64,000 nucleotides of DNA from Thermoplasmata archaeon (lineage in GTDB: Archaea > Thermoplasmatota > Thermoplasmata > Lutacidiplasmatales > UBA184), in assembly GCA_021844945.1 (NCBI GenBank), contig JAKBSJ010000001.1:186001-250000 (forward strand). Reading direction: 5' to 3'. The translations under genes were made by a program, and so were the position numbers. The notes beneath the pieces are model-generated. The model was not told where the DNA came from. It ran no database searches and was given only the letters and a program-made list of their open reading frames with translations. This document shows, piece by piece, positions 28,280 to 63,762 of this stretch (its first letter is position 1; every line of letters begins with the position of its first letter).

Positions 28280-29359
28280 ATGGCGAAGGCAGCACAATCG
28301 GCGCCCGAGGTGGCGCCGGGGGTAAGCCATGCGCTCTCTAACGATCGCCTTCTCTCGATGTACCGTGTGATGGTCCTTGCGCGGGCGATTGACGAGCGCT
28401 GCCTGTCCCTACAACGACAGGGCCGCATCGGTTTCTACGCGCCAGCCTCCGGCCAGGAGGCCGCCCAGATCGGATGCGCCGCTGCCCTCGGGGACGAGGA
28501 CTGGATCTTTCCCGCCTATCGTGAGATCGGCATCGCCCTGTGGAGGAAGGTCCCGTTCCGCGCGCTGATGGACCAGTTCATCGGAAATTCCACCGACCGT
28601 GTGAAGGGACGGCAGATGCCGAACCACTACAGTTTCCGGGACCACAACTTCGTCTCGCCTTCGAGCCCGATCGGCACCCAGATCACTCAGGCGGTCGGTG
28701 CTGCGATGGCGATGCAACGCCGCCATGTGCCCCAGGTGACCGCGACCTTCTTCGGGGACGGAGCGACCAGCTCGAACGACTTCCACGCCGGGATGAACTT
28801 CGCCGGCGTGTACCGGACGCCCACGATCTTCTTCTGCCAGAACAATCAGTGGGCGATTTCGCTGCCTCGGAGTAGGCAGACGCACAGCGCCACCCTCGCG
28901 CAGAAGGCGGAAGCGTACGGGTTCTCGGGGGTCGTGGTCGACGGGAACGACGTTCACGCGGTGTTCGATGCCGTGGCTGCCGCGCGGGAGCGAGCGCTGG
29001 CCGGCGAAGGCCCGACGCTCATCGAGGCCCAGGTCTATCGGTTCGGCCCCCACTCGACATCGGACGATCCCCACCGGTACCGGTCGGACGCCGACGTCGC
29101 GGAGTGGAAGCGCAAGGACCCGATTCTGCGTCTTCGCGAGGAGCTTCGAACTTCCGGCGCTCTTACGGATGAGGCGGAGTCACAGCTCCAAGAAGCGGTT
29201 AAGCGCGAGATCTCCGAGGCGATCGAGGCTGCAGAGGGCGCGCCGGCGCTCGATCCTCTGACGCTCTTCGACGACACCTTCGCGCAACGGACCCCCCGGC
29301 TCGAAGAGGAGCGGGCGGAGTTCCAGCGCCTCTTGCGGGAGGGAGTCATCCGGCCATGA
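28280..29359 (+). CDS. pdhA: 2-oxoacid dehydrogenase E1 component, alpha subunit
   Basis: RQGRIGFYAPASGQEA, FFGDGATSSNDFHAGMNFAGV, NNQWAISLPRSRQT, RFGPHSTSDDPHRYR. Confidence 0.93.
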   Translation: MAKAAQSAPEVAPGVSHALSNDRLLSMYRVMVLARAIDERCLSLQRQGRIGFYAPASGQEAAQIGCAAALGDEDWIFPAYREIGIALWRKVPFRALMDQFIGNSTDRVKGRQMPNHYSFRDHNFVSPSSPIGTQITQAVGAAMAMQRRHVPQVTATFFGDGATSSNDFHAGMNFAGVYRTPTIFFCQNNQWAISLPRSRQTHSATLAQKAEAYGFSGVVVDGNDVHAVFDAVAAARERALAGEGPTLIEAQVYRFGPHSTSDDPHRYRSDADVAEWKRKDPILRLREELRTSGALTDEAESQLQEAVKREISEAIEAAEGAPALDPLTLFDDTFAQRTPRLEEERAEFQRLLREGVIRP

Positions 29360-30333
29360 GCGAAATGACGCTAGTACAGGCGGTGAACCGAGGTCTATTC
29401 GAGGCGATGAAGCAGGACCCCGATGTCCTCGTGTTGGGCGAAGATGTCGGCGTGGACGGCGGTGTCTTCCGAGCGACGGATGGACTGATCAAAGAGTACG
29501 GGGCCGAACGTGTCATCGACACGCCGCTCTCCGAGACCGGGATCATCGGTACCGCGATAGGGATGGCGCTCTACGGCCTCAAGCCGGTGGCGGAGATCCA
29601 GTTCCTCGATTTCATCTATCCCGCATTCGACCAGATCGTCAGCGAGCTCGCGAAGTTCCGCTTCCGCTCGGGGGGTCAGTACCCATGCCACGTCGTGATC
29701 CGAGCGCCGTACGGCGGCGGGATCAAGGGCGGAGTCTACCACTCCCAGAGCACGGAAGCGTACTTCTGCCATACGGCAGGACTGAAGGTCGCGATCCCTT
29801 CGACCCCGGCGGACGCGAAGGGCCTCTTACTGACCGCGATCCACGACGAGGATCCCGTGATGTTCTTCGAGCCGAAACGCATCTACCGGACTGCTACCGG
29901 AGATGTGCCCGACGGGGATTACCGGGTGCCGTTGGGCCAGGCACGAACCGTCCGCGAAGGTGAGCACCTCTCGATCTTTGCCTACGGCGCGATGGTTCCG
30001 CCGGCCAGCGAAGCGGCCTCCGCACTGGCGAAGGACGGCATCTCGGCGGAGGTCATCGATCTCCGGACGCTCGTCCCCTTGGACGAGGCGGCCGCCGTCG
30101 CGAGCGTAGAGAAGACCGGGCGCGCGGTGGTCGTTCACGAGGCCGCGCGGTTCTGCGGCTTCGGGGCCGAGCTGAGCGCGATCCTCGCGGAGAGGGCGTT
30201 CTACTCGCTGAAGGCCCCGATCCTCCGCGTCACGGGATACGACACCCCGTTCCCCTACGCGCTCGAGAACGTCTATCTCCCCAATGCGGCGCGGATCGAA
30301 GCGGCCGCGCGGGCTGTGATGCGGGAAGGGTGA
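29356..30333 (+). CDS. pdhB: 2-oxoacid dehydrogenase E1 component, beta subunit
   Basis: VLGEDVGVDGGVFRATDGL, DTPLSETGIIGTAIGMAL, IEIQFLDF-type stretch, HSQSTEAYFCHTAGLKVAIPSTP. Confidence 0.95.
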   Translation: MSEMTLVQAVNRGLFEAMKQDPDVLVLGEDVGVDGGVFRATDGLIKEYGAERVIDTPLSETGIIGTAIGMALYGLKPVAEIQFLDFIYPAFDQIVSELAKFRFRSGGQYPCHVVIRAPYGGGIKGGVYHSQSTEAYFCHTAGLKVAIPSTPADAKGLLLTAIHDEDPVMFFEPKRIYRTATGDVPDGDYRVPLGQARTVREGEHLSIFAYGAMVPPASEAASALAKDGISAEVIDLRTLVPLDEAAAVASVEKTGRAVVVHEAARFCGFGAELSAILAERAFYSLKAPILRVTGYDTPFPYALENVYLPNAARIEAAARAVMREG

Positions 30334-30345
30334 TCCGGAGCGACC

Positions 30346-31677
30346 ATGGCGTACGAATTCCGACTCCCCGACATCGGAGAGGGCGTCGCCGAGGGCGAGA
30401 TCGTCCAATGGTTCGTTAAGGAGGGTGACACGATCCAAGAGGACGCTCCGCTTGTGAGCGTGCTGACGGACAAGGCGAACGTCGAGATTCCGTCCCCAAA
30501 GTCCGGTAGGATCGTCCGGATACATGCCCAAGTCGGAGAGAAGGTCAAGGTCGGGGGTCTCATGGTCACGATCGACCCAGCAGGGGCCGGGGGCAAGGCT
30601 TCCGCTTCTGCCTCCCCCACGTCCGCCCCTGCCCCGCCCCCCACGGGCCCCGCGAAACCTGTTACGGCTGCTCTCGCCCCTTCGGCGCCATCGGTTCGGC
30701 CGGCTCCCAGCCCCCCACCTCCGGTCCCGGCGCCCGCGACTTCCGCCTCCCCCGGAGATCGTGTGCTTGCCTCTCCGAGCCTTCGCCGAAAGGCGGCGGA
30801 GCTCGGCATCGACTTGTCCGCGGTCCACGGCTCCGGCCCCGGCGGACGAATTCTTGAATCCGACCTCGCCAGCGCCCATCCCCCGACCGCGAGCGTTGCC
30901 TCCTCCTCCTCGGGGCCGGCCATCGTTGCGCCAGCTCCCTCTGGTGCGGCCGTCCGCCCCACGGGACTGGATCAGGTCACGAAGGTTCCTATCCGCGGGG
31001 TGCGCCGAGTGATCTTCGACCACATGGCCGAGGCGAAGCACAAGGCTGCTCACTTCACCTACGTGGAGGAGGTCGACGCGAGCGAGCTCGTTCGGATACG
31101 CGATCGGATGGCGCCTCACGTCGAGAAACAGGGGGTCAAGCTCAGTTACCTGCCGTTCATCGTCAAGGCGGTCGTCGCGGGTCTACGCGAGCAGCCGGGT
31201 CTCAACGCGACGATGGACGACGAGCACCAGGAACTGCTCCTTCACAGTGCTTTCCGCATCGGAATCGCCACAGCGGCTCCGGACGGACTCCTCGTCCCCG
31301 TCGTCAACGACGCCGATACCAAGAGCATCCAGCAGCTCGCGCGCGAGATCCAGTCCCTTGCCGAGAGGGGCCGCGAAGGGAAGCTCACCCGCGAGGAGCT
31401 CACCGGTTCCACGTTCACGATCACGAGCCTCGGTGCCCTCGGCGGCGTCCTCGCCACGCCGATCCTGAACTACCCGCAGGTGGGGATCCTCGGGGTGCAC
31501 AAGATCGTCCGTCGCCCGGTCTACCGGCCGGACGGATCGATCGGCCCGGCCGATCTCATGAACCTCTCGGTCTCGGTCGACCACCGGGTCCAGGACGGGA
31601 TCGTCGCCGCCAAGTTCCTCGCGGCGGTCAAAGCGAACCTCGAGGATCCGCATCGGCTGTTCGCGGATATGGCATGA
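30346..31677 (+). CDS. pdhC: dihydrolipoamide acyltransferase E2 component
   Basis: Lipoyl domain (VLTDKANVEIPSPKSG), Pro/Ala/Ser linker, E3-binding domain, catalytic SVDHRVQDG. Confidence 0.95.
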   Translation: MAYEFRLPDIGEGVAEGEIVQWFVKEGDTIQEDAPLVSVLTDKANVEIPSPKSGRIVRIHAQVGEKVKVGGLMVTIDPAGAGGKASASASPTSAPAPPPTGPAKPVTAALAPSAPSVRPAPSPPPPVPAPATSASPGDRVLASPSLRRKAAELGIDLSAVHGSGPGGRILESDLASAHPPTASVASSSSGPAIVAPAPSGAAVRPTGLDQVTKVPIRGVRRVIFDHMAEAKHKAAHFTYVEEVDASELVRIRDRMAPHVEKQGVKLSYLPFIVKAVVAGLREQPGLNATMDDEHQELLLHSAFRIGIATAAPDGLLVPVVNDADTKSIQQLAREIQSLAERGREGKLTREELTGSTFTITSLGALGGVLATPILNYPQVGILGVHKIVRRPVYRPDGSIGPADLMNLSVSVDHRVQDGIVAAKFLAAVKANLEDPHRLFADMA

Positions 31678-32735
31678 CGGACGCCTCGGGCTCCCTCATC
31701 CCTCTTCCCTACACCCCTACGGATGTCTACCGTCGGATCGGCCCCGAGGCGCGGGAGACGCTGCGGTCCGCGTATGGATGGATGATCCTCGGACGAACGC
31801 TCGATGCGCGCATGCAGGGTCTTCAGCGGCAGGGCCGGGTGGGATTCTACGGGGCCGCCACCGGCCACGAGGCCGTCAACGTAGCGGCCGGGCTTTCGAC
31901 CCGGAAGGAGGACTGGATCTTCCCCGGACTCCGCGAACCCCTGGTTGCTCTCGTCCGCGGCCACCCCCTCCCTCGATACGTCCAGCACCTCTTTGCCACG
32001 GCTCAAGACCCATCTAAGGGACGTCAGATGCCCTGCCACCCCAGTGCGAGCGAGGTCCACCACGTTTCGATCTCGAGCGTGATCGGAACCCAGATCACCC
32101 ACGCGGTAGGTACCGCGTGGGCCCTGCGCCTTCGCAAAGCATCGGGCGTCGCGCTCGCCTTCTTCGGAGATGGGGCGACCAGCGCGAACGATTTTCACGC
32201 CGGTCTCAACTTCGCGGGCGTTGCGGGTCTGCCCGTCGTCTTCGTGTGCGCCAACAACCAGTGGGCGATCTCCATGCCCGTCGAGCGGCAGAGCGCGGTC
32301 GCTACCCTGGCCCAGAAGGCGTCCGCGTACGGCTACTCCGGTGTGACGGTCGACGGGACCGATATCGTTGCGGTCCTGGAGGCGTTCCAAAGAGTGCTCC
32401 GCGAGTCCCGCGATGGTTCGGGCCCGCATCTCATCGAATTCCGAGTCTACCGGATGACCCCACATTCTAGCTCGGACGACCCTACTCGCTACCAACCGGT
32501 GGACTGGAACGCGCGGGCAAGGGCCCACGACCCGGTCGTCCGTCTCGAGACATGGCTCTCGACGGTCGGCTGGCTCGACGACGCCGATCGAGCGGGCTAC
32601 GCCCAGCGAGCGTCGGAGAGCGTCCGGGACGCGATCGCCGAAGCGGAAGCGACCCCGCCACCGAGCCCGGCTTCCCTGTTCGAAGACGTTTTCTCTCGGC
32701 CACTCTCGGTGCCGGCGGAGATCGCTCGCATCTAG
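31674..32735 (+). CDS. second 2-oxoacid dehydrogenase E1 alpha-subunit paralogue
   Basis: RQGRVGFYGAATGHEA, FFGDGATSANDFHAGLNFAGV, NNQWAISMPVERQS, RMTPHSSSDDPTRY. Confidence 0.92.
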   Translation: MTDASGSLIPLPYTPTDVYRRIGPEARETLRSAYGWMILGRTLDARMQGLQRQGRVGFYGAATGHEAVNVAAGLSTRKEDWIFPGLREPLVALVRGHPLPRYVQHLFATAQDPSKGRQMPCHPSASEVHHVSISSVIGTQITHAVGTAWALRLRKASGVALAFFGDGATSANDFHAGLNFAGVAGLPVVFVCANNQWAISMPVERQSAVATLAQKASAYGYSGVTVDGTDIVAVLEAFQRVLRESRDGSGPHLIEFRVYRMTPHSSSDDPTRYQPVDWNARARAHDPVVRLETWLSTVGWLDDADRAGYAQRASESVRDAIAEAEATPPPSPASLFEDVFSRPLSVPAEIARI

Positions 32736-32742
32736 GGGCACG

Positions 32743-34185
32743 ATGGCCGGAACGTATGCTCGTTCGACGGATGTCCTCGTCATCGGTGGCGGACCGGGTG
32801 GATACATGGCCGCGATCCGGCTGGGCCAACTCGGAAAGGCGACGATCTTGGTCGAGAAGGGCCCGCTCGGGGGCGAGTGCCTCAACCGGGGATGCATTCC
32901 GTCCAAGGCGCTGATCTACGCGTCCGAGCTCTACGCCCACGTCCGTTCGGAGGGTCCCGAGATCGGCGTCCTCGCGCCCGATGCGAAGTTCGACCTTGCG
33001 AAGACGATGGCCTGGAAGCAGTCGGTCGTCGAGAAGGAGCGGCAAGGAGTACAGTCGCTGTTGAAGACCGCGGGCGTCACGGTCCTTCCGGGCGAAGCTC
33101 GCTTCACCGGCCCCCACTCCGTGCAACTCACCGCACCCGACGGGGGTCAAGAACGCATCGACTTCGCGAGTGCGATCATCGCCACGGGGGCCCTCCCGAT
33201 CCAACTCCCCGGGTTCGAGACGGACGGAAAGATCGTCGTCAACGCATGGGACCTGCTCTCGATCCCAAAGCTTCCCGCGTCGATGCTGATCCTGGGAGGT
33301 GGTGTGAGCGGCTGCGAGCTGGGGGAGTTCCTCGCCCGCGTCGGTGTGGCGGTGACGATCGTGGAGATGATGCCCCAGTTGATTCCCGGGATGGAAGCGG
33401 ACTTGTCCCGCGAACTCAGGCACCGTCTCGAGGCTGCGGGCGTGAAGGTTCTCACCTCCGTCCGGGCGACCCACCTCGAGCGCGGGCCCCCCGAGCTCGC
33501 GATGACGATCGAGAAGGACGGAGCGCGCGAGACCGTCCGGGGCGAGATGCTCTTCGTGACGATCGGCAAGCGCGCGGACACGCGCACCCTTGGCCTCGAG
33601 CAGGCGGGCGTCGCGGCGAACGCCCGGACCGGTTTTGTTGGCGTGGATGCCCAGATGCGAACGAACGTTCCGCACATCTACGCGGTCGGCGATGTCGCGC
33701 GCCCTCCGATGCTCGCGCACAAGGCCTACCGAGAGGGGATCGTTGCGGCCGAAGCGATCGCGGGTCGACCGACCCGGTTCGACTTCCAGTGCATCCCGTC
33801 CGTGGTGTTCACCGAGCCGGAGCTCGCGTCGGTCGGGGACTCGGTGGGGGACGCTCTCGCGAAGGGTCTCAAGGCGCGGGAGGTACGGTTTCCGTACCTC
33901 GCGCTAGGGCGCGCGCACGCGAACCACGCGACCGAGGGTTGGGTCAAGATCGTCGGCGACGATTCGAGCGGCCTCTTGCTCGGCGTGCACGCCGCCGGGG
34001 CCTCGGCCGGGGAGATGATCAGCGAGGCCGCGCTCGCGATCGAGATGGGCGCCACCGTGCGCGATATCGCGGGCACGATCCACCCCCATCCCACCTACGG
34101 TGAGCTGATGGCCGAGGCCGCCCTGCTCTGGCTCGGAGAGCCGATGCATGTCGCCCGGAGACCGTCGGATGCCGTCCGTCATTGA
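32743..34185 (+). CDS. lpdA: dihydrolipoamide dehydrogenase E3
   Basis: VIGGGPGGYMAAIRLGQLG, GGECLNRGCIPSKALI, AVGDVA, HPHPTYGE. Confidence 0.95.
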   Translation: MAGTYARSTDVLVIGGGPGGYMAAIRLGQLGKATILVEKGPLGGECLNRGCIPSKALIYASELYAHVRSEGPEIGVLAPDAKFDLAKTMAWKQSVVEKERQGVQSLLKTAGVTVLPGEARFTGPHSVQLTAPDGGQERIDFASAIIATGALPIQLPGFETDGKIVVNAWDLLSIPKLPASMLILGGGVSGCELGEFLARVGVAVTIVEMMPQLIPGMEADLSRELRHRLEAAGVKVLTSVRATHLERGPPELAMTIEKDGARETVRGEMLFVTIGKRADTRTLGLEQAGVAANARTGFVGVDAQMRTNVPHIYAVGDVARPPMLAHKAYREGIVAAEAIAGRPTRFDFQCIPSVVFTEPELASVGDSVGDALAKGLKAREVRFPYLALGRAHANHATEGWVKIVGDDSSGLLLGVHAAGASAGEMISEAALAIEMGATVRDIAGTIHPHPTYGELMAEAALLWLGEPMHVARRPSDAVRH

Positions 34186-39967: not shown

Positions 39968-41452
39968 TCAAGGTTTTCGGCCGTCGGAGGCCCCGCCCGG
40001 CGGGAGTCCGTCCGCCCGCAGGTCCTTCCAGGAGAGCAGCGGGTGCCGGGCGCACTCGACCTCGTCGATGCGGCTCACCGAGGTGGCCGTCGGGGCCGCC
40101 CGAAGGTGTTCGTCCGTGTCGTCCAATGCACGTTCGAACGCCGCCACGTACTCGTCCAACGCCCGACGGCTCTCGGTCTCGGGGAGCTCGACCATCAGGG
40201 CTTCGGGCACGATCGTCGGGAAGTAGACCGTCGGGGCATGCACCCCTTCGTCCAAGAGCCGTTTCGCGAGATCGAGCGTGCGGACTCCGCGCGATAGGAG
40301 CGGTTCTCCCGAGAGGAGGAACTCGTGCTTCACCAGCGGACGGAACGGGCGAGGCAGCCGCTTCCCCAGTCGAGCGGCCACGTAGTTCGAGTTGAGGACC
40401 GCCCTTCGGGCGACGTGCGTCAGTCCCTCCTCGCCGTGGATCAGGGCGAAGACGAACGCGCGCAGGTCGAGGCCGAAGTTTCCCGGCCCACTACGGACCT
40501 TCCCGATCGACTTCGGCCGGTCGTAATCGAGGCGGAACTTGCGGCCCGACTTCACCACGCGGGGAATGGGGAGGTACGGTGCGAGGGTTGCGTTCGCGGC
40601 GAGGACCCCCGCGCCGGGGCCCCCGCCGCCGTGCGGGGTGGCGAACGTCTTGTGAAGATTCAGGTGAGCCACGTCGAACCCCATCTTCCCCGGATGCGTG
40701 ATCCCTAGGATCGCGTTCAGGTTCGCCCCATCGTAGTAGAGCATCCCGCCCGCGCGGTGCACCGTTTCGGCGATCTCGAGGATATCGCTCTCGAAGAGGC
40801 CGGCGGTGTTCGGGTTCGTCAGCATGAAGCAGGCCGTCGTGTCCGAGACCGCCGCTCGCAGGGCGTCGACGTCCACGCATCCGCTCTTGGACGGGAGCTC
40901 GCGGGTCGTAAAGCCGGCCATCGTCGCGGAAGCGGGGTTGGTCCCGTGAGCGGTATCCGGAAGAAGGACCTCCGTCCTCTGACCAAGCTCGCCTTTGTCC
41001 CGGAAGTACGCGCGGATCATCAGCAGGGCGGAGTACTCCCCGTGCGCTCCTGCGGCGGGCTGCAGGGAGATCTCGGGCATGCCGGTGATGCGGCTCAGCA
41101 TCCGTTCGAGCCGCCAGATGATCTCGAGGGCCCCTTGAACGGTCTCGACCGGCTGTTCCGGGTGGAGCTCCGTGGCGGTCTTCCGCCGCGCAATCACTTC
41201 CGAGACCCGCGGGTTGTACTTCATCGTGCACGAGCCGAGAGGATAGGTCACGGTCTCGATGCCGAAGTTCATCTGGCTGAGTCGGGTGTAGTGCCGAAGG
41301 ACCTCGAGCTCGCTCAGTTCGGGCCACCGAAGGGCTTCCTTCCGGGTCCATCGGTCGGGAACGCCCGAAATCGAGGGAGCCCGCCCGGTGGGGGCGCTCG
41401 CGGAGAGCTCCCAAATGGGAGGCTCGTCCCACCGGGCCTGACGGAAGGTCAC
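39968..41452 (-). CDS. gcvPB: glycine dehydrogenase (decarboxylating) subunit 2
   Basis: YPLGSCTMKYNPR, HGTNPASATMAGF, HLNLHKTFATPHGGGGPGAG (PLP lysine). Confidence 0.95.
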   Translation of the reverse strand: MTFRQARWDEPPIWELSASAPTGRAPSISGVPDRWTRKEALRWPELSELEVLRHYTRLSQMNFGIETVTYPLGSCTMKYNPRVSEVIARRKTATELHPEQPVETVQGALEIIWRLERMLSRITGMPEISLQPAAGAHGEYSALLMIRAYFRDKGELGQRTEVLLPDTAHGTNPASATMAGFTTRELPSKSGCVDVDALRAAVSDTTACFMLTNPNTAGLFESDILEIAETVHRAGGMLYYDGANLNAILGITHPGKMGFDVAHLNLHKTFATPHGGGGPGAGVLAANATLAPYLPIPRVVKSGRKFRLDYDRPKSIGKVRSGPGNFGLDLRAFVFALIHGEEGLTHVARRAVLNSNYVAARLGKRLPRPFRPLVKHEFLLSGEPLLSRGVRTLDLAKRLLDEGVHAPTVYFPTIVPEALMVELPETESRRALDEYVAAFERALDDTDEHLRAAPTATSVSRIDEVECARHPLLSWKDLRADGLPPGGASDGRKP

Positions 41453-42897
41453 TTCGATCCTCCCGTCGAGGCGAGAGCAGAGCTCGCGGCCGAAACGAGC
41501 TTCGCAATGGCCTTGTCGTCTACGGTCTCGGTGGCGGAAACGAGGATGCGTTCGGGCTGATCCGGTGCACCCGGGCGCGGATCCCGCAAGGGAACGCCTC
41601 CCAGAACCCCTCGCTTGCGAAGCCGCTCGAGGAATTCCGATGCCGTTCCCCGGGTGAGCTCGATCGTGAAGTCCGAAAGGTAGGGGGCCTCGAATCGGGG
41701 ACTTCGCAGACCATCGAGGCCGGCGAGCGCGCTGGCGATCGTTCGCGCCCTTTCCGCCAGGCCGCGCTGAAGTTCGGCCAGCCCCCGAGGCCCGACCACG
41801 CTCGCGTAGACCACGAACGCGAGCGCGATGAGGGACTCATTCGTGCAGATGTTCGATGTGGCTCGGGACCTTCGAATGTGCTGCTCTCGCGTCTGCAGCG
41901 TGAGGGCGTAGGCCCGCCGTCCGTCCTTGTCATGGGTCGCGCCGACGATGCGGCCCGGTGAAAGGCGGACGAAATCCTTTCGGCAGGCGAACAGCCCAAC
42001 GCCGGGTCCACCGTACGACGGTGGTATCCCGAAGCTCTGTCCCTCTCCGACCACGATGTCCGCGCCGTAGTGGGCGGGAGGTTCGAGCACCGTCAAGGCG
42101 AGCGGGTCGGCCCGGACGATGAGAGGAAGGTCTCCAACGGTCGACCGAAGTTCGAAGAGGTGATCGTCCAAGTGGCCGAACCCATTCGGCACGTCGGCAA
42201 GCACTCCGAAAACGTCCCCTGTACGGACCTCTTCCGCGATCCGACCGAGGTCGATGAGACCGGTCCGCTCTTCGAAAGGGATCTCGACGACCGTAAGGCC
42301 GGGCCCGGTTGCGTAGTTCGATAGCACGCTTCTCTCCTCCCAAGGCAGGCTCGCCGGGACGAGAAACCTCCTCCCTTCGTGGACCCGTCGGGCCAAGAGG
42401 AGCGCCTCGCCGCTCGCCGTTGCACCGTCGTAGAGCGATGCGTTCGCGACATCGAGCCCGGTGAGCTCGACCCAGAGGCTCTGGAACTCGAAGAGCGCCT
42501 GGAGCATCCCTTGGCTGGCCTCGGCCTGGTAGGGCGTGTAGGAGGTATAGAACTCGCTGCGTTGAAGGATACTGTCCACGGCGGCCGGGAAGTAGCGGGT
42601 CGCGAACCTGCCTCCGAGGAAGTTGGCGAAACGGGAGAAAGGACGGTTCCGATCGAGGATCTTGTCGACCGCCCGCACGGCCTCTCCCTCCTCTTGCGCG
42701 GTTCCGATTCCGAGGCGGCCGATGCGCGCCTTTCGAGGGACGTCGCTGTACAGCTCGTCCGAGGTGGTAAGGCCGATGGCCCGGAGCATCTCCTCTTCGT
42801 CGCGCTGAGAATCCGGAATCCAGCGGACCACCGTGCTCCCCGACAGGGTGTGGAGCGCTGGTTCCCCAAAAAGACTACGTGCCTCGGCCCTGCGCAA
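41449..42897 (-). CDS. gcvPA: glycine dehydrogenase (decarboxylating) subunit 1
   Basis: FLGGRFATRYFPAAVDSILQRSEFYTSYTPYQAEASQGMLQALFEFQS; RTREQHIRRSRATSNICTNESL. Confidence 0.95.
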   Translation of the reverse strand: MRRAEARSLFGEPALHTLSGSTVVRWIPDSQRDEEEMLRAIGLTTSDELYSDVPRKARIGRLGIGTAQEEGEAVRAVDKILDRNRPFSRFANFLGGRFATRYFPAAVDSILQRSEFYTSYTPYQAEASQGMLQALFEFQSLWVELTGLDVANASLYDGATASGEALLLARRVHEGRRFLVPASLPWEERSVLSNYATGPGLTVVEIPFEERTGLIDLGRIAEEVRTGDVFGVLADVPNGFGHLDDHLFELRSTVGDLPLIVRADPLALTVLEPPAHYGADIVVGEGQSFGIPPSYGGPGVGLFACRKDFVRLSPGRIVGATHDKDGRRAYALTLQTREQHIRRSRATSNICTNESLIALAFVVYASVVGPRGLAELQRGLAERARTIASALAGLDGLRSPRFEAPYLSDFTIELTRGTASEFLERLRKRGVLGGVPLRDPRPGAPDQPERILVSATETVDDKAIAKLVSAASSALASTGGSK

Positions 42898-47559: not shown

Positions 47560-49152
47560 TCACTCGCGGACGGGAATCGTGGGTATCGGGAGGCGGTCCG
47601 GGTGCAGGTTCGGGTCTTCCATAGGGCGCCCTGGGCGGTTCGGCGGGCTCCAGAGGTTTCGCGTCTTCGCCGTAAAGTCGAGGAAACCGACGAACCCGCG
47701 GAACGCCGCGCGGTACGCCCGGGTGTGGGGTCCTTCCCAATCGAAGAAGTCGTTCAGCAGCCCCTTCGACTGCCGGATGCCGTGGCTGAGCGCGCGCTTG
47801 AGCAGCTCCTCCTGCACCGGGCTCAACATGTCACGGCGGAACCAGTCGCGCGACTTGAGGTGTCCGAGCGGGACGAAGAACATCGGCACGAGCAGCCCTT
47901 TGAAGTCCCAAAGGTCGTCGATGAGCTCGATCGTCTTGATGACGTCGTCTTCGGTCTCCTGCGGGAGACCGACGATGAACGTGCAAGCCGGAAAGACGTG
48001 GTTGTCGTTCATCAAGCCGGCCGCCTGAACGACCAGCTCTGGCCATTGGGAGGCCTTGAACGGGGCGACCTTCCCGGGCATGGCTGCGGTGATCATGCGG
48101 GGTGACCCGGTTTCGACCCCGATCTCGACACCCCACCAGCCTTGGTTCTCGTCGACCAGAACCTCGGCGCACTTGGACAGCAGTTTCGGCTTGGTCATCA
48201 GCGAGGCCACCGCCACGTGGCTCCAGCCGACTTGGGAGTAGTACCGCTTCGCGAGTCGGAGGAGCGGGAGGAGCTTCTCCTCGCGGGGCATGACGTTCGG
48301 GCTTCCGTAGAAGTAGACGTCGTCCGAATGCAGGATCCCCTTACGGATCCCGAGCTTCGCGTTGACCCGGAGCTCTTCCTCAATCTTGTCGAGACCGTAC
48401 CAGCGCGTCGGGCGCGTGGTTACCGAGCAGAACGAGCAGCCGCGGCAGCACCCTCGGCCGATCTCGATCAGGCCGTTGACGCTCGGGTACTTGATCGAAC
48501 TGATCTGCTCGACCTTTGGTGCATCCTTCGCTCCGAGGATCACATGGGGAGGAAGGTACTCGTCGTTCAGGGCCTTGCGGACGATCTCCCGGACGTAAAT
48601 GTCTCCCTCGCCCTCAACGACGGTATCCACACCGCCGAACGAATCGACGAACTCTTGGATCCAAGGGAGCTTCATGCGCGTCGGTGGCGCGATCTGCCAC
48701 GCGCACGGGCCACCGGCGATGATCTTCATGCCGCGCCGGCGGGCTTCGACGACCGCCGGCTGGCTCATCATGCGCTTGAAATTCACGCAGTTGAGCGGGT
48801 CCTTGTGCATGACCCCACCAAAGGTCGACGCCGGCGGGTTGAGGCCGAAGTAATCGTGGCCCGAGATCAGAAGCACCTTCGCTTCCCCGGGCATGTAGCG
48901 CTTGAGGTGGGACGGATGTACGATGCGTGCGTCAAATCCCCCGTCGATCAGGGCCGCCTCAATCTTCCGCATCCCGTAGGGTGCTTGCTGCGGGTAGCCG
49001 TGCTCGTCGACCGGCATGTCCGGATAGAAGAGGCGCTTGTAGGCCCGCTCGGGGAGGACATACGCCGGAGTGGTCGTTCCGAACCCCAGGAACTCCTTCC
49101 CGTTGTGGTTGCTCATCATCGTCCAATCGCAAGTGATGACAACTTCCGGCAT
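47560..49152 (-). CDS. B12-binding-domain radical SAM protein, GDGT ring synthase (GrsA/B)-like
   Basis: N-terminal DWTMMSNHNGKEFLGFGTTTP, APYGMRKIEAALIDGGFDA; radical SAM cluster GRGCCRGCSFCSVTTRPTRWYGLDKIEEELRVN (CxxxCxxC). Confidence 0.85.
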   Translation of the reverse strand: MPEVVITCDWTMMSNHNGKEFLGFGTTTPAYVLPERAYKRLFYPDMPVDEHGYPQQAPYGMRKIEAALIDGGFDARIVHPSHLKRYMPGEAKVLLISGHDYFGLNPPASTFGGVMHKDPLNCVNFKRMMSQPAVVEARRRGMKIIAGGPCAWQIAPPTRMKLPWIQEFVDSFGGVDTVVEGEGDIYVREIVRKALNDEYLPPHVILGAKDAPKVEQISSIKYPSVNGLIEIGRGCCRGCSFCSVTTRPTRWYGLDKIEEELRVNAKLGIRKGILHSDDVYFYGSPNVMPREEKLLPLLRLAKRYYSQVGWSHVAVASLMTKPKLLSKCAEVLVDENQGWWGVEIGVETGSPRMITAAMPGKVAPFKASQWPELVVQAAGLMNDNHVFPACTFIVGLPQETEDDVIKTIELIDDLWDFKGLLVPMFFVPLGHLKSRDWFRRDMLSPVQEELLKRALSHGIRQSKGLLNDFFDWEGPHTRAYRAAFRGFVGFLDFTAKTRNLWSPPNRPGRPMEDPNLHPDRLPIPTIPVRE

Positions 49153-49252
49153 TCAATTCCCTCCGGGGACTATCCCCGGCTCACCTTTGCCACGAACGCC
49201 CTCCCTTTTATGCGTTGCGACGCCCCGGCGTGGTGAAATTCGGGCGGGCCTT

Positions 49253-49510
49253 TCACTCGAATCCCGGCTCGTCGTCGTCCCGCGGACTCCCGCTCTCGAG
49301 GGCGTCCCCGGTCTCGTCGGGGAGTTCTTCAGCGTCGGCCGAGCCGCGGAAGGCGCTGTCGTTCTGCAGCAGGTGGACGCGCACGCAGTCTCGGTGCGCC
49401 GGCCGACCGTTCCAAGAGCTTGTCTCCTCGGGTTTTCCGAGCGGTTCCTGGCACAAGCAGCAGATCTCCGGGGGAGCGACGATCCATGCAGTACGGGGAG
49501 GAGTGGTCAT
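49253..49510 (-). CDS. small putative zinc-binding protein
   Basis: EICCLCQEPL ... GRPAHRDCVRVHL (CxxC/HxxC); acidic tail. Start taken at MTTPPRTAW. Confidence 0.5.
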   Translation of the reverse strand: MTTPPRTAWIVAPPEICCLCQEPLGKPEETSSWNGRPAHRDCVRVHLLQNDSAFRGSADAEELPDETGDALESGSPRDDDEPGFE

Positions 49511-60741: not shown

Positions 60742-61533
60742 TTAGGAGATTCCGGGAGGAGGTTCCGTGTCGTCCCATTCGTCGAGGTCGGACAGTTCCT
60801 CTTCCGTAACCTCGGTCTCTTCTCGGCGGAATATCCCGCTCGGAAGGAACAGCCCGAAGAACGTCGCGAGGCACCCGATCCCCAGGAGGAGGATCGAACC
60901 GAAGAACACGGAAGCGTAGCTGAAGGTATCGAGCGCCGGTACTCGCTCCTGGTAGGTCTCGAGCAGGATCGTCTCCACCGAGATCGCATAGGAGTGCGGG
61001 TTGCGTAGGGTGAGGTAGCAGGGGCAGGCGCCCGGGTGTCCCGCGCTCGAGTTCCACGTTCCGCTCGACGCTCCGCTCCATTGGGCCGAGGCGTTGCCCG
61101 TGCACTGACCGGTCGACCCGTTGTAGAAGGCGCAAGCCGACGCCACGTAGAAGCTCGCGTCGATCGAGCCATTGGACGACCAGATGACGAACAGCGAGGC
61201 ACTCGGACTCAACGGGAAGATGATCGCCTGGTTGTTGGTGGACCCGTTCGGTTCGGCCGGCGCGTAGAGCTTCTGCGGGACGATCGTCGTGTGCAATGTA
61301 GTCGGGGGGTACAGGACGATGGTCAGAAAGACGGCCGCTCCGACCACGGCGATGACGATTCCTACGACCGCAAGGCCCGTTCGCACGCCTTCGAGAATCG
61401 GCTCGCGCGGAAATACGCTTCGTTCACCGAGCGAAGAGGCCCCTTCGTTCCCCGGCGCGATTTTTGGGTTGGACTCCGCATAAATACCCTGGCGGCTGTG
61501 GAGAGTTCGTGACGTCCGCCTCCACCGCGTCAC
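60742..61533 (-). CDS. hypothetical membrane-anchored protein with sequon-rich ectodomain
   Basis: Two TM helices flank a roughly 110-aa Ser/Gly/Asn-rich segment with five N-x-S/T sequons and Cys (CAFYNGSTGQC, CPC). The start is probably internal because the 5' end overlaps the divergent TFB gene. Confidence 0.6.
   Translation of the reverse strand: MTRWRRTSRTLHSRQGIYAESNPKIAPGNEGASSLGERSVFPREPILEGVRTGLAVVGIVIAVVGAAVFLTIVLYPPTTLHTTIVPQKLYAPAEPNGSTNNQAIIFPLSPSASLFVIWSSNGSIDASFYVASACAFYNGSTGQCTGNASAQWSGASSGTWNSSAGHPGACPCYLTLRNPHSYAISVETILLETYQERVPALDTFSYASVFFGSILLLGIGCLATFFGLFLPSGIFRREETEVTEEELSDLDEWDDTEPPPGIS
61479..61486 (+). promoter_or_regulatory. TATA-like box for the TFB gene
   Basis: CATAAATA about 23-30 nt upstream of the GTG at 61509, consistent with leaderless/short-leader archaeal initiation. 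Confidence 0.45.
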
Positions 61534-62462
61534 CCGGCTCCGAAGAACCCCTCCCGGCCTGTCCGCTCTGTGGAAGCGTCCATCGGATTACGGACCCGAT
61601 GCGCTCGGAGGTCCACTGCGCGGATTGCGGTCTGGTCTTTGAGGCCCAGCAGCTCGTTGCGACCGCCCCGATCATCCCGGTCGAGTCCGAGTCCGACGGT
61701 AGCGGTCGAGGGATTGGACCGTTCAGTCAAGCGACCAACGCGCGCGGGTCGCTGGGCACGACCCTGAACCTATCGCGCGACGGTCAAGGGCGCCGACTCG
61801 ACTCGAAACGCCGTTACGAATTCCAGCACCTCAAGAGGGTCATGCAGCGCCAAACGAGCCGGGGACCCCGTACCGTGAGTTCCCGGACCCCCGCGCATGG
61901 CGAGATTGCGACCGCCTGCGAGCGCCTCGTGCTTCCCCCCCTCATCGGCACCGAGGCCGAGCGCATCTTCCGGGAGGCCCGGTGCCGCGGACTTTCGCGG
62001 GGGAGGTCGCTCGAGTCGTGCGTCGGCGCAGCGGTCTATGCCGCCTGCCGAGTCTATTCGGTGCCCCGGACCCTGACCGAGGTCGCCGACGCTGTCGGGG
62101 CCCCCCGCACGGATGTCGGCCGCGCGTTCAAGGTCCTCTCGCGAGCGCCGATTACCCGCATCCCTTCGATCGGCTTGAAGGGGTTTCTCGCACGCTACGC
62201 CGAAGAGCTCGCGCTGAGCCCCATGGTACGCTCCACGGTCGAGGCCATGCTCGAAGAGGCTCACAAGAGCCCGGAGCTTTCGGGCCTCAGCCCGCATGGC
62301 TTGGTGGCGGCGATGATCTGCGTCGCTTCCGACCAGCACGGCGAGAAGCGGTCCCGGGCCCAGATCGCGCGGGTCAGCGCGGTCACCGAAGTCACCCTGC
62401 GTTCCACGCGCCGCATCCTCGAGAGGGCGCTCTCGAACCCAACCACCCCGACCGGGCCGTAA
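61509..62462 (+). CDS. tfb: transcription initiation factor IIB (TFB)
   Basis: Zn ribbon CPLCGSVHRITDPMRSEVHCADCGLVFE; two cyclin-like repeats (ESCVGAAVYAACRVYSVPRTLTEVADAVG...; HGLVAAMICVASDQHGEKRSRAQIARVSAVTEVTLRSTRRIL). Confidence 0.94.
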   Translation: MTSASTASPGSEEPLPACPLCGSVHRITDPMRSEVHCADCGLVFEAQQLVATAPIIPVESESDGSGRGIGPFSQATNARGSLGTTLNLSRDGQGRRLDSKRRYEFQHLKRVMQRQTSRGPRTVSSRTPAHGEIATACERLVLPPLIGTEAERIFREARCRGLSRGRSLESCVGAAVYAACRVYSVPRTLTEVADAVGAPRTDVGRAFKVLSRAPITRIPSIGLKGFLARYAEELALSPMVRSTVEAMLEEAHKSPELSGLSPHGLVAAMICVASDQHGEKRSRAQIARVSAVTEVTLRSTRRILERALSNPTTPTGP

Positions 62463-62595: not shown

Positions 62596-63762
62596 TTGCC
62601 GGACCATCCCGCGGTCGCGGACCATCGGACCACCGTCATCTGGGACCCGCGCTTCCTCGACTACAATTTCGGGCCGGGCCATCCGTTCGTGATGGAGTAC
62701 CGGGGGCTCGCCGCGCACCTTCTCCGGGAGATTGCCCCGATTTCCGGTGGCGTGCGCTGGCAGACGGAGGTCCCGGTAGCCGATCACGGGACCCTGATTC
62801 GGTTCCATCGAGAGGAGTACATCCAGCTCGTAGAGGGAGCGTCGAACCTCGAGCGACGGGTCTGGCTGGATTCCGGCGACACACCGGCGTTCCCGGGCTG
62901 CCATGATGCGGCCGCACGGATCGTCCAAGGATCGATCGCTGCCGTCCACGCGGCGACCGAGCACTCCGCCCCCGCGCTCCAGCTCGGAGGCGGTCTGCAT
63001 CACGCCCATCGCGACCGAGCCAGCGGGTTCTGCATCTACAACGACGTGGCGCTCGCGGTCGACGAGGCCTGCCGGAAGGTTGGGAAGGTAGCCTACGTGG
63101 ACATCGATGCCCATCACGGGGATGGGGTCATGTACGGGTTCTACGCGCGCGGGGACGTGCTCGACATCGACATTCACCAGGATGGAAGCTCCCTGTTCCC
63201 GGGCACCGGGGACGTGGACGAGACCGGCGTCGAGGATGGCGCGGGCCTCAAGGTCAATCTACCGCTCCCCGCAGGAGCCGGGGACCGGGCGCTCGTGAGC
63301 CTCTTCCACCGAGTGGTCCTCCCGATGCTGCGGGAGTACCGGCCCCCGCTCGTCATCCTCCAGCACGGGGTGGATGGGCACGCGGGTGACCCCCTCGCGC
63401 AGCTCCAGTACACTCGGGCCGGGTATGCGGAGATTCTCCGAGAACTGCTCTCGTACGCACGCTCGAACTGCGCGGGACGCCTCGTGGTTACGGGGGGTGG
63501 AGGGTACGATCCGGCGAACGTCGCCTTGACCTTGGCCCGCGTGGGCGAGGTCCTAGGCGGAAATCCGGACGGGCCGCCGCTCGGTGCCGCACTTCCGGCG
63601 GAGTGGCGCGACTCGTTCGCCGTCCGAGCGAAGTCCGAAGCTCCTCGGCACTGGTCGGACGAGACTCGGGCCACCTCGGAAACGTGGAGCCCGGCTGTGG
63701 AGCAGTCGCTGGTGGACCGTCTCGAGTCTTCGCTCGGCCGTCGTTTCCCGCGGGTCCGCTAA
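62596..63762 (+). CDS. histone deacetylase/AcuC-family deacetylase
   Basis: GGGLHHAHRDRASGFCIYNDVALAV, VAYVDIDAHHGDGVMYGFY, FPGTGDVDETG, LVVTGGGGYD. TTG start. Confidence 0.93.
   Translation: MPDHPAVADHRTTVIWDPRFLDYNFGPGHPFVMEYRGLAAHLLREIAPISGGVRWQTEVPVADHGTLIRFHREEYIQLVEGASNLERRVWLDSGDTPAFPGCHDAAARIVQGSIAAVHAATEHSAPALQLGGGLHHAHRDRASGFCIYNDVALAVDEACRKVGKVAYVDIDAHHGDGVMYGFYARGDVLDIDIHQDGSSLFPGTGDVDETGVEDGAGLKVNLPLPAGAGDRALVSLFHRVVLPMLREYRPPLVILQHGVDGHAGDPLAQLQYTRAGYAEILRELLSYARSNCAGRLVVTGGGGYDPANVALTLARVGEVLGGNPDGPPLGAALPAEWRDSFAVRAKSEAPRHWSDETRATSETWSPAVEQSLVDRLESSLGRRFPRVR

Follow-up and report, generated by a model that had tools for sequence, protein, structure and literature searches.

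A probable GrsA-type GDGT ring synthase gene in an uncultured Thermoplasmata lineage

Introduction

Temperature and pH proxies are based on ringed GDGTs, and the identity of the organisms that produce these lipids therefore matters; on land, Nitrososphaeria and methanogens are usually regarded as their source. An open reading frame for a radical SAM protein in the genome of an uncultured Thermoplasmata archaeon raises the question of whether another archaeal lineage carries the enzyme that closes these rings and, if so, whether it is of the GrsA or the GrsB kind. The window, i.e. the whole stretch of 64,000 nucleotides that was analysed, is part of a 406-kb contig in a genome (G000) of 1.26 Mb. 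GrsA homologues have been noted before in Thermoplasmata or other Thermoplasmatota (PMC8473941; PMC11868695), so that a GrsA encoded in the window adds to a known kind.

Reference sequences and searches

The reference GrsA, GrsB and Tes sequences were taken from a genome (G064) identified as Sulfolobus acidocaldarius DSM 639. A match of 98 % identity to a Sac7d query pointed to two genomes, with Sac7d lying at 48.4 kb in G064. Tes was located in the same genome at 560.7–562.5 kb and two Grs-like proteins at 1,353.6 kb and 199.6 kb, which we take to be the positions expected of Saci_0703 (Tes), Saci_1585 (GrsA) and Saci_0240 (GrsB), respectively. The locus tag of Tes is given in PMC8941075 and those of GrsA and GrsB in PMC8473941, and the 32 % identity between the two reference Grs proteins agrees with the 31 % stated in the latter. 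The identification of the reference sequences is thus indirect, via gene positions and Sac7d, and we regard it as secure. The named relatives and the Sulfolobales entry were found with a chimeric query that combined the N-terminus of the window protein with a Sac7d sequence.

The gene and its host lineage

The open reading frame starts with ATG, encodes 530 aa and contains in its translation all three peptides quoted in the initial annotation. The Pfam model Radical_SAM (PF04055) matches residues 229–411 above its cut-off (E 1.7e-13), and the GC content is 0.85 at third codon positions vs 0.42 at second positions. Intact orthologues occur in more than 50 related genomes; at the 52 orthologue loci compared besides the window, they show 69–99 % identity to the window protein, with a mean column identity of 86 % in the alignment. 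Taken together with a conserved gene order and the upstream signals listed in Table 1, the open reading frame is therefore a genuine gene and not a chance occurrence.

The named relatives of the window protein are Thermoplasmata archaeon bins, including UBA184, UBA61, AcS and SubAcS bins, the latter two presumably from the Lutacidiplasmatales study; the nearest of them is YS5.bin51, whose GrsA is 99 % identical. The host thus appears to belong to an uncultured Thermoplasmata lineage resembling UBA184/Lutacidiplasmatales, for which we infer a soil or mine-drainage habitat from the bin names and from the Lutacidiplasmatales study (PMC9287336).

The genes around the predicted grsA follow the order beta-CASP nuclease, inositol phosphatase-like, NAD kinase, JAB protease, grsA, small zinc protein, HTH-CBS and S58 peptidase, an arrangement conserved across most relatives compared, with no recognised lipid gene adjoining grsA. 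The small putative zinc protein, which matches no Pfam family, keeps its place beside grsA, in the same orientation, also at loci whose other neighbouring genes have moved. A single operon of these two genes was considered and is weakened by the promoter-like element that grsA possesses itself. Elsewhere in the window, we observed a complete-looking 2-oxoacid dehydrogenase cluster at 28280–34185 (+), comprising two E1 alpha-type genes, E1 beta, E2 and a dihydrolipoamide dehydrogenase-like gene; a split glycine dehydrogenase at 39968–42897 (-), encoded by two overlapping GcvP-type subunit genes; and a histone-deacetylase-family protein at 62596–63762 (+), adjoining a TFIIB gene at 61464–62462.

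Table 1. Features of the predicted grsA locus, in window coordinates
Feature	Position	Strand	Basis or remark
grsA orthologue, predicted GDGT ring synthase (C-7 cyclopentane rings)	47560..49152	-	46.5 % identity to S. acidocaldarius GrsA; GrsA clade 100/100
Two C-terminal helices, residues 445–469 and 477–497, amphipathic	47662..47820	-	AlphaFold2 model, sequence
CX3CX2C motif (C235, C239, C242), ligand of the radical SAM [4Fe-4S] cluster	48427..48450	-	Residues 235–242
N-terminal alpha/beta (Rossmann-like, B12-binding-like) domain, residues 1–224	48481..49152	-	AlphaFold2 model
Ribosome-binding site GGAGGG	49159..49164	-	Upstream of grsA ATG
TATA-like promoter element CATAAAAGG	49204..49212	-	About 60 nt upstream of grsA ATG; recurs in many relatives
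85-aa putative zinc-binding protein (CxxC...HxxC, WNGxPAHR, acidic tail)	49253..49510	-	Directly upstream of grsA throughout the family

Relationship to GrsA

The gene had initially been annotated as encoding a candidate ring synthase of the GrsA/GrsB type, a proposal that sequence comparison and phylogeny both support and sharpen to GrsA. By BLASTP, the window protein aligned with S. acidocaldarius GrsA over 490 aa (residues 3–488; 464 bits) at the identity given in Table 1, compared with 28.6 % identity and 219 bits for GrsB, while it gave no alignment with Tes (Saci_0703) at E values up to 10. In each of 11 Sulfolobales genomes, its best match was one GrsA-type protein with 46–49 % identity. 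A tree of 54 proteins placed it inside the Grs clade, where it and S. acidocaldarius GrsA fall into one 25-row clade with a support of 100/100. A quick 114-row tree agrees, with a support of 87 for the widest GrsA clade and of 99 for a 41-row core containing both the window protein and S. acidocaldarius GrsA.

That the window protein might instead be a GrsB-type enzyme forming C-3 rings is suggested by its 29 % identity to GrsB (Saci_0240), with which it has the superfamily and domain layout in common. However, it lies outside the separate GrsB clade, and forcing it to group with GrsB costs 69 log-likelihood units and is rejected (p-AU 4.5e-5). In addition, the genome possesses a separate GrsB orthologue. 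The tree rejects an assignment to GrsB, the probability of which we regard as very low.

The grouping with GrsA is also visible in individual positions: H16, E20, F102, G141, W310, F425, W437 and F487 are each shared by 93 % or more of 48 proteins from the GrsA clade and by no more than 15 % of 59 further Grs homologues, although these eight residues were chosen from the clades of the tree itself and hence serve as an illustration of the grouping, not as a new test of it. Besides these residues, the window protein shares with GrsA (Saci_1585) homology over the full length, a single-cluster CX3CX2C motif and a layout in which an N-terminal alpha/beta domain precedes the radical SAM domain and the C-terminal helices. 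The hosts differ, i.e. a hot-spring crenarchaeon in the case of GrsA and an uncultured high-GC Thermoplasmata archaeon in the case of the window protein.

Radical SAM core, domain layout and the B12 question

Among the nine cysteines of the window protein, only the three of the CX3CX2C motif are invariant across GrsA/GrsB, and this comparison revealed no conserved auxiliary-cluster cysteines, which is consistent with the statement that GrsA/B most likely carry one cluster only (PMC11186832). In the AlphaFold2 model, built from 53 closely related rows (pTM 0.83, mean pLDDT 77.7), the N-terminal alpha/beta domain is followed by the radical SAM domain and by a pair of C-terminal helices. Four of the GrsA-clade residues (H16, E20, F102 and G141) are located in the N-terminal domain, and F487 sits within the C-terminal helices. 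The published GrsA model has two elongated hydrophobic C-terminal helices that were proposed as a possible membrane anchor (PMC11186832); in comparison, the two helices of the window protein are amphipathic and not strongly hydrophobic, and a contact with the membrane is possible. Fold matches in the PDB were AprD4- and MiaB-type radical SAM enzymes with modest TM-scores of 0.43–0.54, the top match being the radical SAM diol dehydratase AprD4; among viral proteins, the fold search yielded no informative match beyond radical SAM homologues.

The initial annotation had further described the protein as B12-binding. The fold type of the N-terminal domain fits this description, but the window protein has neither a match to the Pfam B12-binding domain nor the DxHxxG cobalamin-ligand motif, and PF02310 itself gave weak matches in four of 14 Grs homologues (best E 0.001). 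The cobalamin label, supported by neither motif nor Pfam, is therefore unproven. These absences also bear on the idea that the protein is a cobalamin-dependent radical SAM methyltransferase unrelated to lipid rings, i.e. a relative of TIGR04013 (MJ_1487) or TIGR04014 (MCR glutamine C-methyltransferase). Both are B12-binding radical SAM families with a homologous radical SAM core and are the nearest curated models in NCBIfam (64.5 and 51.5 bits, respectively), and the closest solved chain by sequence, 9ccb, is named only ‘Radical SAM core domain-containing protein’. However, both scores fall far short of the curated thresholds (251 and 360 bits), and the same pattern is obtained with S. acidocaldarius GrsA itself (69.4 and 47.2 bits). 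Membership in either family was therefore rejected, and a methyltransferase of this kind appears very improbable.

Pathway partners

A GrsB orthologue is encoded outside the window on the same 406-kb contig (G000:C3:81019–82587, i.e. L150:478–2091, minus strand). It is 51 % identical to S. acidocaldarius GrsB, falls into the GrsB clade with a support of 100/100 and has a GC content that is normal for the genome, with no sign of recent transfer. While nearly every genome of the family that is sufficiently complete encodes a GrsA-type protein, GrsB was present in six of 103 (G000, G621, G004, G644, G617 and G620). Five of the carriers could be placed on the GrsA tree, where they need at least three changes of state; GrsB has thus been gained or lost repeatedly in the family, subject to the incompleteness of the MAGs. 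The near-universal presence of GrsA and the patchy presence of GrsB are the less expected parts of our results, and the latter pattern offers a natural comparison for the contribution of GrsB.

Tes, the radical SAM enzyme of the same pathway that is expected to make the substrate, was found as full-length matches of 37–39 % identity in most well-assembled members of the genus, and all eight members examined harboured it in complete or fragmentary form. These include G621, whose GrsA is 99 % identical to the window protein. It was not found in the window genome, which is 86.7 % complete, an absence that we take as a result of assembly incompleteness.

Grs proteins outside the GrsA clade were observed in other archaea as well. 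At least six genomes (L178, L179, L180, L190, L191, L194 and others), which possibly belong to ammonia-oxidising archaea, encode two Grs paralogues each that lie outside both the GrsA and GrsB clades and are candidates for other ring positions. Genomes of a Thermoplasmatales-like family, f17 (e.g. L232, L238, L234 and L243–L245), encode GrsB-clade proteins along with members of a third Grs clade.

Proposed function

In our view, the gene is very probably grsA, with the encoded GDGT ring synthase predicted to introduce C-7 rings into the GDGT made by Tes. The [4Fe-4S] cluster of GrsA would reductively cleave SAM to give a 5'-deoxyadenosyl radical, which would abstract a hydrogen from a saturated biphytanyl chain of the Tes-made GDGT; the resulting chain radical would then close onto a neighbouring carbon to form a C-7 cyclopentane ring, yielding GDGT-1 to GDGT-4. 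The GrsB orthologue on the same contig could subsequently add C-3 rings (GDGT-5 to -8). This ring chemistry and the division of labour between C-7 and C-3 derive from the work on S. acidocaldarius reviewed in PMC9385802. By analogy, we infer that the window protein would catalyse the same reaction in the host cell without an auxiliary cluster.

At 47 % identity to GrsA, a changed regiochemistry or substrate is possible. The protein could be an enzyme of the GrsA clade that performs the same hydrogen abstraction on another substrate or position, such as archaeol, GTGT before tetraether formation or another isoprenoid. Apart from the limited identity to the tested enzyme, this would fit with an insert near residues 155–163 and a conserved proline-rich C-terminal tail, both of which distinguish the lineage from S. 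acidocaldarius GrsA, and with the lack of Tes in the incomplete window genome. To our knowledge, no tested member is available from the Thermoplasmatota part of the GrsA clade. However, the window protein retains the residues conserved across the GrsA clade, Tes is present in sister species and GrsB co-occurs on the same contig, and we consider such a different substrate or position unlikely.

Implications for ringed lipids

Since the gene encodes a clear relative of GrsA, the host lineage probably makes ringed GDGTs. A search of PMC9287336 and PMC12220078 for lipid terms found none, and thus no lipid data for the host order; according to PMC11868695, uncultured sedimentary Thermoplasmatales have never had their lipids assessed. 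Thermoplasmatales make GDGT-1 to -4 (PMC11349054), yet the Thermoplasmatales-like family f17 gave no match in the GrsA score range; therefore, rings do not map one-to-one onto GrsA.

Going beyond the single genome, we lean towards the view that the whole uncultured and partly acidophilic lineage of soil and mine-drainage Thermoplasmata makes cyclised isoprenoid GDGTs via GrsA, and that a patchy subset carrying GrsB, including the genome analysed here, could exceed four rings. The combination of a near-universal GrsA with Tes and sometimes GrsB names this uncultured Thermoplasmata family as another likely producer. If true, ringed GDGTs on land would have, in the Thermoplasmata lineage with GrsA, a source that has gone unrecognised.
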